Notes under the pieces: generated by a model
The model's database searches: none
Told to the model about the DNA's origin: nothing
What the model saw: the letters and a program-made list of their open reading frames with translations, nothing else
Made by a program: the position numbers and the translations under genes
Shown here: piece by piece, positions 17,407 to 53,594 of the stretch
Layout: each line of letters starts with the position of its first letter
Position numbering within the stretch: position 1 is the first letter of the stretch
NCBI RefSeq assembly: GCF_037975445.1
Contig: NZ_CP150254.1
Span: 4,400,001-4,464,000 of the forward strand
Length of the DNA stretch: 64,000 bases
DNA from: Peribacillus sp. FSL P2-0133
Lineage (GTDB): Bacteria; Bacillota; Bacilli; Bacillales; DSM-1321
Direction: 5' to 3'

Positions 17407-17485
17407 CTTTATTGAAACGTTTTGTGGATCAAGCCTCTTCAAGCGAACCAACATAAACCTATTCATCTCTTCTATTTTCATACTT

Positions 17486-17553
17486 CCTTGTAGTCCGGCA
17501 TTACGGCTGCCAGGTAGAAACTATCAGACCATCATCACTGATATTATACAAGG
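17486..17553 (-). promoter_or_regulatory. Purine (guanine-class) riboswitch
   Basis: On the minus strand the aptamer shows P1 CCTTGTA/TACAAGG, the core TATAAT segment, the L2/P2 region TCAG...CTGATA, the J2/3 signature GTTTCTACC, and P3 ending GACTAC. The specificity nucleotide before TAC is C, as in guanine/hypoxanthine sensors (U in adenine sensors). It precedes a terminator and nupG, giving purine-dependent repression of nucleoside uptake. Confidence 0.93.
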
Positions 17554-17791
17554 ATATTTTTTAAATAAATTTCTCAGGAAAGATATCATTTTAAATCAGT
17601 TTATTTTTAATTACAATACGTTTCAAAGTTGTTATATTAATATAAATTTTTCGAAAACAGTCAAGAAAGTCTCCAAGGGGCCAATGTTGGGTAATACTAA
17701 TGAAGGGGCTGGCTTAAACCCTCCCAGTTGTTTCAATTCACCATATTAACCACTACATCTCCTTTACAGGAAATAAGGACGTGAATTTTTT

Positions 17792-19350: not shown

Positions 19351-19609
19351 CTATCTAGGACCTTCTTTCTTTGCTCTTGTTGATAAATAGAATCTATATG
19401 ATTTTCAAAAAAAAATCAATTAATACCCCTTGAGTAGTGATTCTTCTATCCTATTCCGAATTTTCATTAAAACAATTAAATCATGTATATAATATCCTTA
19501 CCACACTCTTCGCAACTCATCCGTTCCGAAGCACATTTTACTATGATTAAAATTATTTAGCAATCGTCATTTAACCATTTTTTTTAAGAAAAGTAAAATG
19601 CACCTTGTG

Positions 19610-19628
19610 ATACGATGTACAAACGTAT
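19610..19628. promoter_or_regulatory. Possible PadR autoregulatory site
   Basis: ATACG and CGTAT flank ATGTACAAA. The dyad lies about 35 bases before the PadR start and contains an ATGTAC step as seen in PadR operators. Weak evidence. Confidence 0.35.
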
Positions 19629-19661
19629 TACACTTTAAAAATGAAAAGGAGGAGAATTTAT

Positions 19662-19982
19662 TTGGATAAAGAATTAATGAAGGGAAGCATTGACCTCCTT
19701 TTGCTTTCACTTCTTTCACAAAAAAAGCTATACGGCTATGAAATCACGAAGATCCTGAAGGAAATGAGCATGGGCAAATATCAAATAAGTGAAGGCACCC
19801 TCTACTCCGCCCTTAAACGATTAGAAAAAAAAGAATTCATAACAGGCCATTGGAAAGAGTCAGAATCAAGCCGCAGGAAATATTATCATGTCACCGAAAA
19901 TGGACAAACCGAACTTGAACGGAAACGAGAATGCTTTTACTTCCTGGAAAAATTAGTCCAGAAAAGCGCAGAGCAATTCTAA
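19662..19982 (+). CDS. PadR-family transcriptional regulator
   Basis: A 106-aa PadR winged-helix regulator. It has the signature MKGSIDLLLLSLLSQKKLYGYEI, then ISEGTLYSALKRLEKKEFI and the wing SSRRKYYHVTENG, followed by a short C-terminal dimerisation helix (PadR-s2 subfamily). TTG 19662 is the likely start because AAAGGAGGAG lies 6 nt before it; ATG 19641 would overlap that site. Such proteins usually repress an adjacent transporter or membrane protein gene, yet none is next to it: the repeat array follows. The target is therefore unknown. Confidence 0.88.
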   Translation: MDKELMKGSIDLLLLSLLSQKKLYGYEITKILKEMSMGKYQISEGTLYSALKRLEKKEFITGHWKESESSRRKYYHVTENGQTELERKRECFYFLEKLVQKSAEQF

Positions 19983-19987
19983 ACAAA

Positions 19988-20035
19988 ATAAAAAGCTCCC
20001 TGCACCCATTATTGGAAATGTGCAGGAAGCTTTTT
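19988..20035 (+). terminator. Terminator downstream of padR
   Basis: AAAAAGCTCCCTGCAC pairs with GTGCAGGAAGCTTTTTTT across a 14-nt loop, then T run. Confidence 0.88.
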
Positions 20036-20039
20036 TTGC

Positions 20040-21545
20040 TGTTTACTCGTGAGTTTGGAGCGAATACTAGTGCAAAGAGTATTACTCATAGAATGTAGTA
20101 GTAAACTCATGAATTATGAGCGTTTACTCGAGAGTATGGGCTATTTACTTGTGAGTTTCGCACTTTTACTCGTGAGTTTCACACTTTTACTCGTGAGTTT
20201 TGCTGTTTTACTCGTAAATTGGTGCCGCACTCAGAATATCGCATCGTTTACTCGTGAGTTTTGCACTTTTACTCGTGAGTTTTGCTGTTTTACTCGTGAG
20301 TTTTGCTGTTTTACTCGTGAGTTTTGCACTTTTACTCGTGAGTTTGCGCTATTTACTCGTAAATTGGTGCCGCACTCATGATTTCGCACCGTTTACTCGT
20401 GAATTTCACACTTTTACTCGTGAGTTTGCGCTATTTACTCGTAAATTGGTGCCGCACTCAGAATATCGCACCGTTTACTTGTGAGTTTCGCACTTTTACT
20501 CGTGAATTTGCGCTATTTACTCGTAAATTGGTGCTGCACTCAGAATATCGCACCGTTTACTCGTGAAATTCACACTTTTACTCGTGAGTTTTGCTGTTTT
20601 ACTCGTGAGTTTTGCACTTTTACTCGTGAGTTTTGCTGTTTTACTCGTAAATTGGTGCCGCACTCAGAATATCGCATCGTTTACTCGTGAGTTTTGCACT
20701 TTTACTCGTGAGTTTTGCACTTTTACTCGTGAGTTTTGCACTTTTACTCGTGAGTTTTGCTGTTTTACTCGTAAATTGGTGCTGTACTCAGAATATCGCA
20801 TCGTTTACTCGTGAATTTCACACTTTTACTCGTGAGTTTTGCACTTTTACTCGTGAGTTTGCGCTATTTACTCGTAAATTGGTGCTGCACTAATGATTTC
20901 GCACCGTTTACTCGTGAGTTTCGCACTTTTACTTGTGAATTTTCTCTATTTACTCGTAAATTGGTGCTGTACTCAGAATATCGCACCGTTTACTCGTGAA
21001 ATTCACACTTTTACTCGTGAGTTTTGCTGTTTTACTCGTGAGTTTTGCACTTTTACTCGTGAGTTTCGCACTTTTACTTGTGAATTTGCGCTATTTACTC
21101 GTGAGTCTCGCACTTTTACTCGTGAGTCTCGCACTTTTACTCGTGAGTCTCGCACTTTTACTCGTGAATTTCGCACTTTTACTTGTGAATTTTCTCTATT
21201 TACTCGTAAATTGGTGCTGTACTCAGAATATCGCACCGTTTACTCGTGAAATTCACACTTTTACTCGTGAGTTTTGCTGTTTTACTCGTGAGTTTTGCAT
21301 TTTTACTCGTGAGTTTGCGCTATTTACTCGTAAATTGGTGCTGCACTAATGATTTCGCACCTTTTACTCGTGAGTTTAGCACTTTTACTCGTGAATTTCG
21401 CACTTTTACTCGTGAATTTCACACTTTTACTCGTGAGTTTTGCTGTTTTACTCGTGAGTTTCGCACTTTTACTTGTGAATTTTCTCTATTTACTCGTAAA
21501 TTGGTGCTGTACTCAGAATATCGCACCTTTTACTCGTGAGTTACT
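20040..21545 (+). repeat. 1.5-kb array of degenerate 21-nt repeats
   Basis: The core ACTCGTGAGTTT recurs every 21 nt with a 9-nt variable part (for example TGCACTTTT or TGCTGTTTT), about 70 units in all. Roughly every 80-250 bases a divergent unit TAAATTGGTGC appears, followed by ACTCAGAATATCGCACCG; there are about 11 of these, and that pair is 40 rather than 42 nt. Because 21 is a multiple of three, all forward frames stay open and read as LLVSFAL- or FTREFCT-type repeats, which I consider spurious: no ribosome binding sites and no preferred frame. The array ends just before the terminator at 21557. Confidence 0.92.
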
Positions 21546-21556
21546 CCATTCACGCA

Positions 21557-21584
21557 AAAAAAGGACCTAATTAGGTCCTTTTTT
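21557..21584. terminator. Palindromic bidirectional terminator
   Basis: AAAAAGGACCTAA mirrored exactly by its complement, with A and T runs. It overlaps the end of the small cysteine-protein gene on the minus strand. Confidence 0.85.
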
Positions 21585-21716
21585 GTCTATTCCTTTATGC
21601 TTGCGATAATTGGCGCAGGAGAGCTTCATACATTCCCCTTGAACATGCGGGCCATATTTTTCACGAAAGGCCTCGAGGCAATAGCATTTATCTTGTTCTT
21701 TTTTGGTTCCATCCAT
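21567..21716 (-). CDS. 49-aa cysteine-containing small protein
   Basis: From ATG 21716 the product starts MDGTKKEQDKCYCLEAFREK, continues with YGPHVQGECMKLSCANYRKH and ends GIDKKGPN before TAG. Four cysteines (CYC, then C and C) could hold a metal or disulfides. AGGAGGG lies 10 nt upstream; an ATG three codons earlier would touch it. The gene is 20 bases downstream of the VUT transporter gene on the same strand, so it may belong to that preQ1-controlled transcript. The family is not recognised. Confidence 0.65.
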   Translation of the reverse strand: MDGTKKEQDKCYCLEAFREKYGPHVQGECMKLSCANYRKHKGIDKKGPN

Positions 21717-21736
21717 CGAGTGCATCCCTCCTAGCT

Positions 21737-22279
21737 TTAACTGGAGACTACACGTTTCTCCAGTTCTACATTGATTCGTCCCAACAGTATGGCACCAATT
21801 GACTGAATGATCGTTTTAACGATGATTTGGCCGATGACCGCAGCTGGTACTGCTTCCCATGGCAATATATTGGCACCCAACGGACTTAGGCCAATCACGA
21901 CAAATATCACCGAATCGAAAAATCCTCCAACGATTCCGCTGTAAAACACCCTCCAACTCATCGGGAGTTTTAAACGGGTATAAATTTCCGTATCCGCTGT
22001 TTCTGCGACCACGAACGATAATGCGGAAGCAAATACGATCAATAACGTATCCCCTAATAAGAATGATACACACGCAGATAAAATAAGTGCAGTGACGATA
22101 CATATATAGGTCTTCGTGCGGCCGAATTTATTCTGGACCAGATCTCGAAAGATGAAGGTTCCCCCAATGAGCAATGTACCCATCGGAATGATGAACATGC
22201 CAAAATGCAATGGCGCAAAAGCTGCTGTAACCACATTCGCCGTGATGATGGATACTAAATACAATAAAATTCTTAACAT
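21737..22279 (-). CDS. VUT-family queuosine precursor transporter (DUF165, YpdP/YhhQ-like)
   Basis: A 180-aa membrane protein with five to six hydrophobic helices. It is of the vitamin uptake transporter (VUT) type that imports preQ0/preQ1 or queuine. Typical pieces are FRDLVQNKFGRTKT after TM2 and the conserved AETADTEIYTRLK followed by FFDSVIFVVIGLSP. ATG 22279 has AAGGAGAATC in front. A preQ1-I riboswitch with terminator lies immediately upstream, which directly supports a queuosine-precursor substrate. Unlinked to queC by about 5 kb of other genes, yet under the same regulator type. Confidence 0.9.
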   Translation of the reverse strand: MLRILLYLVSIITANVVTAAFAPLHFGMFIIPMGTLLIGGTFIFRDLVQNKFGRTKTYICIVTALILSACVSFLLGDTLLIVFASALSFVVAETADTEIYTRLKLPMSWRVFYSGIVGGFFDSVIFVVIGLSPLGANILPWEAVPAAVIGQIIVKTIIQSIGAILLGRINVELEKRVVSS

Positions 22280-22299
22280 TTCTTGATTCTCCTTATACA

Positions 22300-22368
22300 G
22301 AAAAAACAGCACCCTAAGAAAGAGCACTGTTCTCCTTAGTTTTTTTGAGAGGGTAGCTAGAACCTCTT
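22300..22368 (-). promoter_or_regulatory. preQ1-I riboswitch with terminator, upstream of the VUT transporter
   Basis: The minus strand reads AGAGGTTCTAGCTACCCTCT, then an A-rich tail and CTAAGGAG, the compact preQ1-I pseudoknot. It is followed by AACAGTGC/GTGCTGTT and a T run (22300-22331), the terminator. Expected outcome: preQ1 binding turns off the transporter. Confidence 0.93.
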
Positions 22369-22556
22369 CCGCCCGAGCGGATTATCATTTTCCTTATTTA
22401 TCGTAGCTTGAAAGCGATTGGAAATCAAGAAGTTTCCATATGGCCGATTTTTGTCGCAGAAAACTGCTTGACCGGCTGTATATGAAAAGCCGACAATGAT
22501 TGATAGAATAATGTTACGATCTTGATATGAGGTATAAAAACGCGAGGAGGAAAAAG

Positions 22557-28353: not shown

Positions 28354-28425
28354 GAAAAAAACAGCACCCTAAGAATAGAGCACTGTTTCTCCTTAGTTTT
28401 TTTGAGAGGGTAGCTAGAACCTCTT
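28354..28425 (-). promoter_or_regulatory. preQ1-I riboswitch with terminator, upstream of queC
   Basis: Nearly the same sequence as the element at 22300-22368. The aptamer lies at 28389-28425 (AGAGGTTCTAGCTACCCTCT plus CTAAGGAG) and the terminator at 28354-28388 (AACAGTGC/GTGCTGTT with T run). It would switch the queC-queD-queE operon off when preQ1 is abundant. Confidence 0.93.
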
Positions 28426-28549
28426 CCGCCTTAACGCGGAATATTATATTTTTCCAAGTCAATAGTAACTTGAAAACGATAATAAATCAAGATGATTATA
28501 TTTAGTGAATATTAGATCTGATGGAAAATTTGGTTATCTTTTCATTGCT

Positions 28550-47550: not shown

Positions 47551-47707
47551 TTCACGAGTAAATCGGCAAACTCACGAGTATTTGCTCTAAACTCACGAGT
47601 AAATTGCACAAACTCACGAGTATTTGCTCTAAACTCACGAGTAAATCGCCAAAACTCACGAGTATTTGTTCCAATTTCACTAGTAAACGCTTATAATCCA
47701 TGAGTTT
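47551..47707 (-). repeat. Second 21-nt repeat array, inverted
   Basis: About seven units of the core ACTCGTGAGTTT (read on the minus strand), each 20-21 nt. The end at 47682-47707 matches 24 of 26 bases of the leader of the large array (20103-20128). Located between the gerC stop and the GNAT gene. Confidence 0.9.
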
Positions 47708-50310: not shown

Positions 50311-50338
50311 GAAAGGTAATTGCATATGTCAAAGGTTT

Positions 50339-50465
50339 TCTAGGGTTCCGCAGTGCGTCTATTGCTGGTCTGGTCCGAGAGAAAACTCACAGCATGCTGT
50401 GCCACGGAAGGATAAAAGCCTGGGAGAAACTGTTTAACGGTTATCTCTTGGGCTTTTTTTGTTTT
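50339..50465 (+). promoter_or_regulatory. Guanidine-I (ykkC) riboswitch with terminator
   Basis: The aptamer shows CTAGGGTTCCG, then GGTCCGAGAGAAAAC, CACGGAAGGATAAAAGCC and GGGAGA, the ykkC consensus. A terminator (GCCTGGGAGA/TCTCTTGGGC, T run) lies at about 50419-50465. Guanidine binding should prevent termination and turn on gdnC-gdnD. Confidence 0.95.
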
Positions 50466-53465: not shown

Positions 53466-53594
53466 TCACCAAAAACATCTTCTTCTACGATCAAATCGAT
53501 CGAATCTGTCACAACGATCAAATCGATCGAATCTGTCACAACGATCAAATCGATCAAATCGATCACAACGGCGTCTTCTATCACAAAAAAACAT
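53466..53594 (-). CDS. 42-aa Cys/Asp/Arg/Phe repeat protein
   Basis: From ATG 53594 the product is MFFCDRRRRCDRFDRFDR, then further CDRFDRFDR units, and ends RRRRCFW before TGA 53466-53468. AAAGGAGGGG lies 8 nt upstream. Cysteine occurs at residues 4, 10, 19, 28 and 40, so the unit is nine residues and the DNA shows a 27-bp tandem repeat. A CATATTTTA on the minus strand (53625-53633) matches the SigK -10 form CATAnnnTA. Small Cys/Arg-rich proteins like this are common in Bacillus spore coats; that assignment is inferred, not shown. Other frames here are shadows. Confidence 0.65.
   Translation of the reverse strand: MFFCDRRRRCDRFDRFDRCDRFDRFDRCDRFDRFDRRRRCFW

Follow-up and report, generated by a model that had tools for sequence, protein, structure and literature searches.

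Helically phased 21-nt tandem arrays behind gene ends in Peribacillus: candidate platforms for a DNA-binding protein

In the window (the whole 64,000-nt stretch of Peribacillus sp. FSL P2-0133 DNA that was analysed), the gap between a PadR-family regulator gene and the genes convergent with it is occupied by a tandem array of a short unit. What kind of element is this: a repetitive protein gene, a satellite without function, an RNA-level element, a replication or segregation element, or an array of protein sites? The features that bear on the question, and the other elements located in the window, are the following.

20042..21543, + strand: main array of 21-nt units, core strand TTTACTCGTGAGTTT-N6; the opposite strand reads AAACTCACGAGTAAA-N6
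21555..21585, - strand: terminator-like hairpin of the leftward genes, GGACCTAATTAGGTCC plus a T run (fold -14.7 kcal/mol, z -4.4)
19990..20037, + strand: terminator-like hairpin of the PadR gene, on the far side of the array (fold -22.2 kcal/mol, z -4.9)
19662..19982, + strand: PadR-family regulator gene, convergent with the genes across the array
21567..21725, - strand: Cys-containing ORF of 52 aa, with its stop codon within the terminator hairpin and a similar sequence at the site in relatives
21737..22327, - strand: transporter gene of the Vut_1 family; it precedes the array in the AAACTC... reading and anchors the orthologous site
22330-22372, - strand: preQ1 riboswitch (Rfam), preceding the Vut_1 gene that adjoins the array
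28387-28429, - strand: preQ1 riboswitch (Rfam)
17471-17571, - strand: purine riboswitch (Rfam)
50329-50428, + strand: guanidine-I riboswitch (Rfam)
47552..47687, - strand: another array of this family (5 units by scan), with a GerAC-like gene before it and a GNAT gene after it

The array and its unit

The length of 1.5 kb and the 21-nt period reported in an earlier note on this DNA were confirmed at 20042-21543, both by TRF (period 21, 65.4 copies, 72% matches, score 948) and by direct scan. The scan found 59 units at ≤4 mismatches to TTTACTCGTGAGTTT and 11 degenerate half-steps; neighbouring units were 21 nt apart except where degenerate units intervened (eleven steps of 40 nt, one of 81 nt). 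The earlier count of about 70 copies was hence sound for the lattice but not for the exact core, the 12-mer ACTCGTGAGTTT occurring in only 28 units within 20042-21543.

The array starts 13 nt past the hairpin at 21555..21585. A generic terminator scan of positions 19600-21900 reported no terminator; neither of the two hairpins flanking the array satisfies its rule, by which the T run must lie beyond the stem and the loop must be of 3-8. The 52-aa ORF had no match in a Pfam search. The PadR-family gene resembles the replication terminator protein family, though below the cut-off (E 0.01), probably through a common winged-helix fold. The four riboswitches found with Rfam lie elsewhere in the window and none lies over the array; the preQ1 riboswitch before the Vut_1 gene suggests that its product is a queuosine-precursor transporter. 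A separate 27-nt tandem repeat was seen at 53487-53570 (3.1 copies, 94% matches).

In the AAACTC reading, the unit of the main array and of most related ones (clade 1) is RAAYTCACGAGTAAA-N6, a 15-nt core followed by a 6-nt spacer. The information per position was ~1.3-1.9 bits in the core, apart from the R and Y positions, and 0.1-0.3 bits in the spacer. The last five spacer positions were nevertheless rich in G+C (70-77%, position matrix of 1602 unit records deduplicated by exact context only, so that some units may be counted twice). Among 1435 single-unit steps, taken from 153 clusters that include 7 small ones from unrelated phyla, 1258 were of 21 nt, 91 of 19 nt, 55 of 20 nt, 17 of 18 nt and 9 of 22 nt, the mean step being 20.8 nt.

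We have then analysed the G+C profile along the unit. For clade 1, 42% of the variance fell on the 10.5-bp harmonic (p=0.010 by shuffling) and only 1% on the 21-bp fundamental; for clade 2, the species with a variant core described below, the share of the 10.5-bp harmonic was 64% (p=0.0003 by shuffling), vs. 10% expected. This dominance of the 10.5-bp component indicates that the unit corresponds to two helical turns. Predicted curvature also exceeded the local background, by 2.6 to 3.4 times in 97/97 arrays, according to two wedge tables (10.2 and 12.1 deg/turn in arrays vs. 3.8 and 3.5 in the background). Random 21-mers placed in tandem were predicted to be curved as well (mean 9.1 and 6.8 deg/turn), and the curvature of the arrays is thus largely a by-product of the period rather than sequence-specific.

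In favour of protein repeats, two of the three frames on each strand are open per unit, and the variable Y position of the core is synonymous in the N-S-R-V frame. The earlier statement that all plus-strand frames stay open did not hold, since one frame in three is stopped in each consensus unit (by TGA on the plus strand and TAA on the minus strand), the frame changes at the 40-nt steps, and among the ORFs listed within the array none is longer than 118 aa. Hardly any position is more invariant than the third bases in CGA and GTA (0.99 and 0.98), which are fourfold synonymous in that frame, and 146 of the 1435 single-unit steps, being of 19 or 20 nt, are frame-shifting. These two observations bore out the earlier assignment of the array as non-coding. 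The arrays are moreover placed behind terminators, and their translations gave no Pfam match above the cut-off (one sub-threshold match, to DUF874). We consider a coding function extremely improbable.

A more serious alternative is a non-functional satellite, in which slippage or unequal exchange amplifies a 21-bp unit in the unconstrained DNA between transcription units. The sites would then be old and inherited, the core would owe its uniformity to common origin and short-tract conversion between loci, and the orientation would result from strand-biased amplification. Block duplications spanning several units, visible in the arrays, are what such a process would leave. The comparison of core and spacer within one array is informative here, because both have the same duplication history and amplification is thereby controlled. 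Diversity within arrays was 0.090 in the core vs. 0.407 in the spacer (~4.5-fold), the spacer being higher in 96/97 arrays; the clade-2 values were 0.109 vs. 0.466, with the spacer higher in 26/26 arrays. Units with conserved cores are more readily detected, although the two T positions at the flanks, which played no part in detection, had diversities of 0.145 and 0.109, likewise 3-4 fold below the spacer. The Y position of the core was as free as the spacer (0.399).

Such a difference between parts of one array is unlike that of neutral units, and so is a spacer that is free in sequence yet GC-rich. The 672 per-array spacer entries comprised 364 distinct 6-mers. Only 15 of the 253 pairs of arrays in the own genome had a spacer in common, though the core was common to all, which also speaks against the satellite. 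Spacing and composition of the spacer are therefore kept and its letters are not.

Fixed sites behind gene ends

The array is not an isolated amplification, a possibility that the earlier note had left standing: the second array lies in the window itself, and the own Peribacillus genome (5.81 Mb) has at least 27 arrays (23 + 3 + 1 from successive scans). A 33-nt pair pattern occurred 61 times in this genome and the 12-mer 151 times, vs. 0 for the reversed control in each case. Every exact 12-mer among the matches listed sits in an array of at least three units (relaxed scan). One anti-oriented array, L198 at 4486 kb of the own genome, has three steps of ~100 nt interspersed among its 21-nt units, and these steps contain a segment that looks unrelated.

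The search among related Bacillaceae proposed earlier did find the core: the pair pattern was present in 16/101 relatives, every one of which belongs to the genus (36 genomes). A pattern of three successive units, built on the half of the core that is shared, CGAGTAAA, matched in 21 of the 36, from 274 times in G013 down to once in G021. Most array-bearing genomes have the core RAAYTCACGAGTAAA with the free GC-rich hexamer, and two have the variant AAATTGGCGAGTAAA genome-wide. Near relatives such as G021 are almost without arrays; the function of the arrays is hence not essential. That nearly all arrays can be lost in near relatives is also compatible with a satellite.

The positions of the arrays were compared next to genes called with a simple ORF and hexamer script. 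At least 143 arrays from 10 genomes sorted into at least 40 positional groups, 28 of them in at least two species; a group was defined by the match of one flank only, and adjacent arrays may fall in one group. An orthologous array exists for 22 of 23 own arrays, so that a mobile repeat or MITE could be discarded, and no terminal inverted repeats were seen by eye at the array ends.

Two sites illustrate this. At the Vut_1/PadR site, 15 of the 28 genomes with the gene hold an array, and anti-oriented units were absent from the 29 loci. The comparison of array lengths proposed earlier revealed strong variation, from 4 to 43 or more units among these 15 genomes, as expected of a satellite. At the pheT site, read in 30 of the 36 genus genomes, at least one unit was present in 20 of the 21 array-bearing genomes, G021 showing only a degenerate stretch. 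The 9 other genomes had no clade-1 unit there, with weak clade-2-like matches in G010 (2) and G029 (1). In G023, inspection by eye showed a pheT array of three units with a terminator-like hairpin on either side. G026 carries, downstream of its Vut_1 orthologue, an unrelated array of ~41-nt units (GATAAATCTCCAATTTCG..., L222), its sole locus in the 36 genomes; the presence of another array at the orthologous site is a point for the satellite.

We have investigated the gaps in which the arrays lie. Of the sites, 20 were in tandem gaps and co-oriented, 16 in convergent gaps, 3 in tandem gaps and anti-oriented, none in divergent gaps and 1 at an edge, whereas the other gaps of at least 50 nt in these loci, taken as background, were 310 tandem, 82 convergent and 144 divergent (p=1e-5 for divergent, p=2e-4 for convergent and p=5e-4 for tandem co- vs. 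anti-orientation). In the AAACTC... reading, the array comes after a gene 3' end. A terminator-like hairpin was found between the gene and the first unit in 13/23 own arrays, at 13-90 nt from the array, for 2.25 expected in shuffles. Such post-terminator gaps would equally give a satellite room for free sequence to accumulate. Since the arrays follow gene ends or lie between them and are absent from divergent promoters, a boundary or topological role is favoured over promoter control. Counted against the boundary reading were the 10/23 own arrays that lack a terminator by the hairpin rule and the three sites anti-oriented to their genes. The upstream genes had no functional theme among the 22 scanned (of 23), bar three genes for aminoacyl-tRNA synthetases (AspRS type, PheT and ThrRS; L194, L195 and L201).

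An RNA-level element has also to be weighed, since the earlier note had considered a non-coding RNA. Read-through or dedicated transcription would give (AAACUCACGAGUAAA)n, which may be bound by a protein or cut by an endonuclease as a 3'-end fail-safe. The array has the orientation of the upstream gene in 20/23 tandem sites, and its strand is the one that read-through RNA would carry. Against this, 13/23 own arrays lie behind a terminator-like hairpin, Rfam had no match over the array, and the 10.5-bp G+C phase would be left unexplained. Folding scores were inconsistent between arrays and clades: the clade-1 z values ranged from -0.4 to -8.6 and from +0.8 to -8.1 on the two strands, several arrays of clade 2 folded weakly, and tandem controls built from shuffled units covered an equally wide range (-5.7 to +6.4). 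We judge the RNA proposal improbable.

The orientation could instead follow replication, the arrays being polar sites for a translocase, a fork factor or a segregation protein, similar to KOPS, SRS or fork-trap sites but arrayed. Replication direction was assigned with the following marker as origin, the terminus being assumed opposite.

22-1341 (own-genome numbering): dnaA, origin marker

The dnaA match of G025 (C1:1009 kb) was in pieces with stop codons, probably through sequencing error. In three genomes, the AAACTC strand was the leading strand in 20/22 arrays of convergent gaps, into which both genes point, and 19/21 tandem co-oriented arrays, counts that are not independent at array level because these genomes have sites in common. 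The own-genome arrays were uneven between the two arms (21 vs. 6, p=0.006), which could also favour a replication function. However, both tandem arrays found on the lagging strand run in the direction of the gene (2/2), and agreement by eye, about 22/24 clusters in G014, was about 14/20 among the matches listed in G030. In addition, the ~27 loci are not concentrated at the terminus and several close relatives are nearly devoid of arrays. The replication rule is weaker than the gene-end rule, and we place this explanation low, last among the non-coding ones.

A variant core and arrays outside the genus

In G014 and G018 the core is AAATTGGCGAGTAAA, with 73 and 66 exact pairs, respectively; G034 had one pair. 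Among the 45 clade-2 arrays, 24 matched clade-1 sites in both flanks and in orientation, at 14 sites, and none matched both flanks with flipped orientation. One-flank flipped matches comprised two clade-2 arrays to one clade-1 site and three sub-arrays of L334 to another, and for 20 of the 45 arrays no clade-1 site matched on the same side. Some clade-2 arrays include clade-1-like units, up to 8, and this mixture makes the core change look gradual rather than clean.

A new core common to many sites is best explained, as far as comparison of the genomes allows, by something that would act in trans, and a variant core spread genome-wide over clade-1 sites in G014 and G018 is not what a satellite would be expected to give. 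Weighing this and the constraint on the core against the variation in copy number and the losses, we regard the satellite as rather unlikely. The near-dyad ACTC-GT-GAGT, from which a dimeric protein site had been proposed, does exist in clade 1, but it is missing from the clade-2 core AAATTGGCGAGTAAA, which is genome-wide in two other species. A dimeric palindrome site was accordingly rejected.

Within the order, GRGTAAA triplets at 21 nt were found in 18/397 genomes, 13 of them outside the genus, vs. 4/397 for the reversed control. The cores of these other Bacillales arrays differ from lineage to lineage, GAACGGGAGTAAA and CTACCGAGAGTAAATC being examples. The upstream gene was co-oriented in 12/23 clusters (8 of the 13 outside genomes; G190 alone 4/4). 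The unit design is thus shown to extend beyond the genus, and the rule of placement and orientation is shown within it only. Matches from other phyla, in 11 of the 120 stretches listed, were other 21- or 22-nt tandem arrays; having been selected by the pattern itself, they are taken as chance or convergence. Among them, ACTCNNGAGT-like cores in 21-nt arrays were seen in Verrucomicrobia, Planctomyces, Armatimonadetes and a cyanobacterium (L074, L106, L116, L130, L150 and L160), one of which (L074) has two variable centre bases between conserved arms. That arrays of 21-nt period but different core exist elsewhere in the Bacillales, and in other phyla too, would also suit a satellite.

Known systems and a possible boundary role

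The arrays were compared with known repeat systems. CRISPR arrays combine cas genes with repeats of 23-50 nt and unique spacers of about the repeat length, and a 15-nt core with a 6-nt spacer at 27 or more loci does not fit. KOPS, SRS and AIMS-type motifs occur as hundreds of single sites along the chromosome, denser near dif and skewed to the leading strand; a distribution of single sites of this kind failed here, the 12-mers listed among the 151 sitting in arrays. Mycobacterial MIRUs are dispersed intergenic tandem loci of variable copy number, with an orientation tied to the neighbour genes and units of 40-100 bp, and we know of no description of helical phasing in them. The Sal-box/TTF-I arrays are repeated protein sites directly downstream of eukaryotic rDNA, oriented with the transcription unit. 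They form one eukaryotic locus family with a known protein, whereas here there are many bacterial loci and a putative protein.

BIME-2/REP elements resemble the arrays in having many intergenic loci, conserved and variable parts in tandem units, and a lineage-specific core, and the arrays are, like REP/BIME, intergenic, multi-locus and placed behind or between transcription units. They differ in lacking the 20-40 bp palindrome and the alternating orientation, in their helically phased 21-bp period and fixed sites across species, and in the lack of RAYT association. Identity with REP/BIME was rejected because the unit is not an imperfect palindrome throughout (the near-dyad is confined to clade 1) and the arrays are not associated with the Y1 (RAYT) transposase. 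PF01797 (Y1/RAYT) was absent from 20/21 array-bearing genomes (G007 had 2) and present in 14/15 array-less ones, a distribution that also rejects spread by RAYT/REP. The arrays work most like BIME-2, yet they are not REP.

In E. coli, BIME-2 elements are gyrase sites; the gyrase motif spans 130 bp, its GC content varies with a period of 10.75 bp, and the enzyme is active downstream of transcription units (PMC6379681). The arrays share with the motif, as described there, a G+C content phased at ~10.5 bp over >100 bp and a position downstream of transcription units; the motif is degenerate in sequence, whereas the arrays have a core of 11-13 bp that is specific to the lineage and hardly varies. 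The 10.5-bp phase is the only feature of the arrays compatible with gyrase binding, and gyrase alone would not need a near-invariant, clade-specific core, which favours a putative sequence-specific protein. Cyanobacterial STRR/heptamer repeats and the TAACTGA repeats of Beggiatoaceae are likewise short, lineage-specific intergenic direct-repeat arrays at many loci, but with 7-nt units and no free spacer in place of 21-nt units; the TAACTGA arrays lie mostly just upstream of start codons, and those studied here behind gene 3' ends (PMC4679880).

Searches of 72,556 plasmid and 50,697 phage records gave no array match with the BLAST low-complexity filter on, and viral contigs gave one 2-unit match that looks unrelated. 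In the open-licence papers searched, a description of the array family was absent and the repeat strings turned up under unrelated titles, in agreement with the earlier view that the element had not been described.

The conserved core, fixed step and free GC-rich spacer together indicate many sites read on one face of the DNA, which makes the earlier suggestion of protein sites or a boundary element plausible. From what the genomes alone can tell, our tentative preference goes to a phased platform for a putative sequence-specific DNA-bending or -wrapping protein, perhaps with a topological effect, that would act as a boundary behind terminators. The arrays would be DNA-level elements behind gene ends, mostly past an intrinsic terminator or between two convergent ones. 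Each 21-bp unit would offer a conserved 15-bp site (RAAYTCACGAGTAAA in clade 1, AAATTGGCGAGTAAA in clade 2) and a sequence-free GC-rich spacer maintaining the AT/GC alternation every 10.5 bp. A putative DNA-binding protein, its specificity co-evolving with the core, would load on many phased sites on one helix face and bend or wrap the DNA. The complex may then form a boundary behind the transcription unit, oriented with transcription and mostly with replication, where supercoils would be absorbed or separated, residual read-through blocked, or both. We infer the protein, the wrapping and the boundary role, and favour the protein platform over the neutral satellite, the satellite over the RNA element, and the latter over the replication or segregation element.

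A broader proposal, possible but doubtful, is that of a chromosome-wide Peribacillus boundary system with ~40 fixed post-terminator phased stations, each offering up to dozens of sites to a dedicated DNA-binding protein. Specificity and core would have been switched genome-wide at least once, and the GRGTAAA arrays of other Bacillales would be branches of the same class.

To our knowledge, few satellite-like bacterial DNA families with signs of selection are known. With a constrained core, helical phase, fixed positions past terminators and a core that changed at many sites between close relatives, the arrays make a testable system, for which the array-poor relatives G021 and G023 are natural controls. 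The arrays are also markers with a strain-variable copy number and a cause of spurious repetitive ORFs in annotation. If they act as boundaries, topological or against read-through, they would provide a handle on how bacteria separate adjacent transcription units past terminators.
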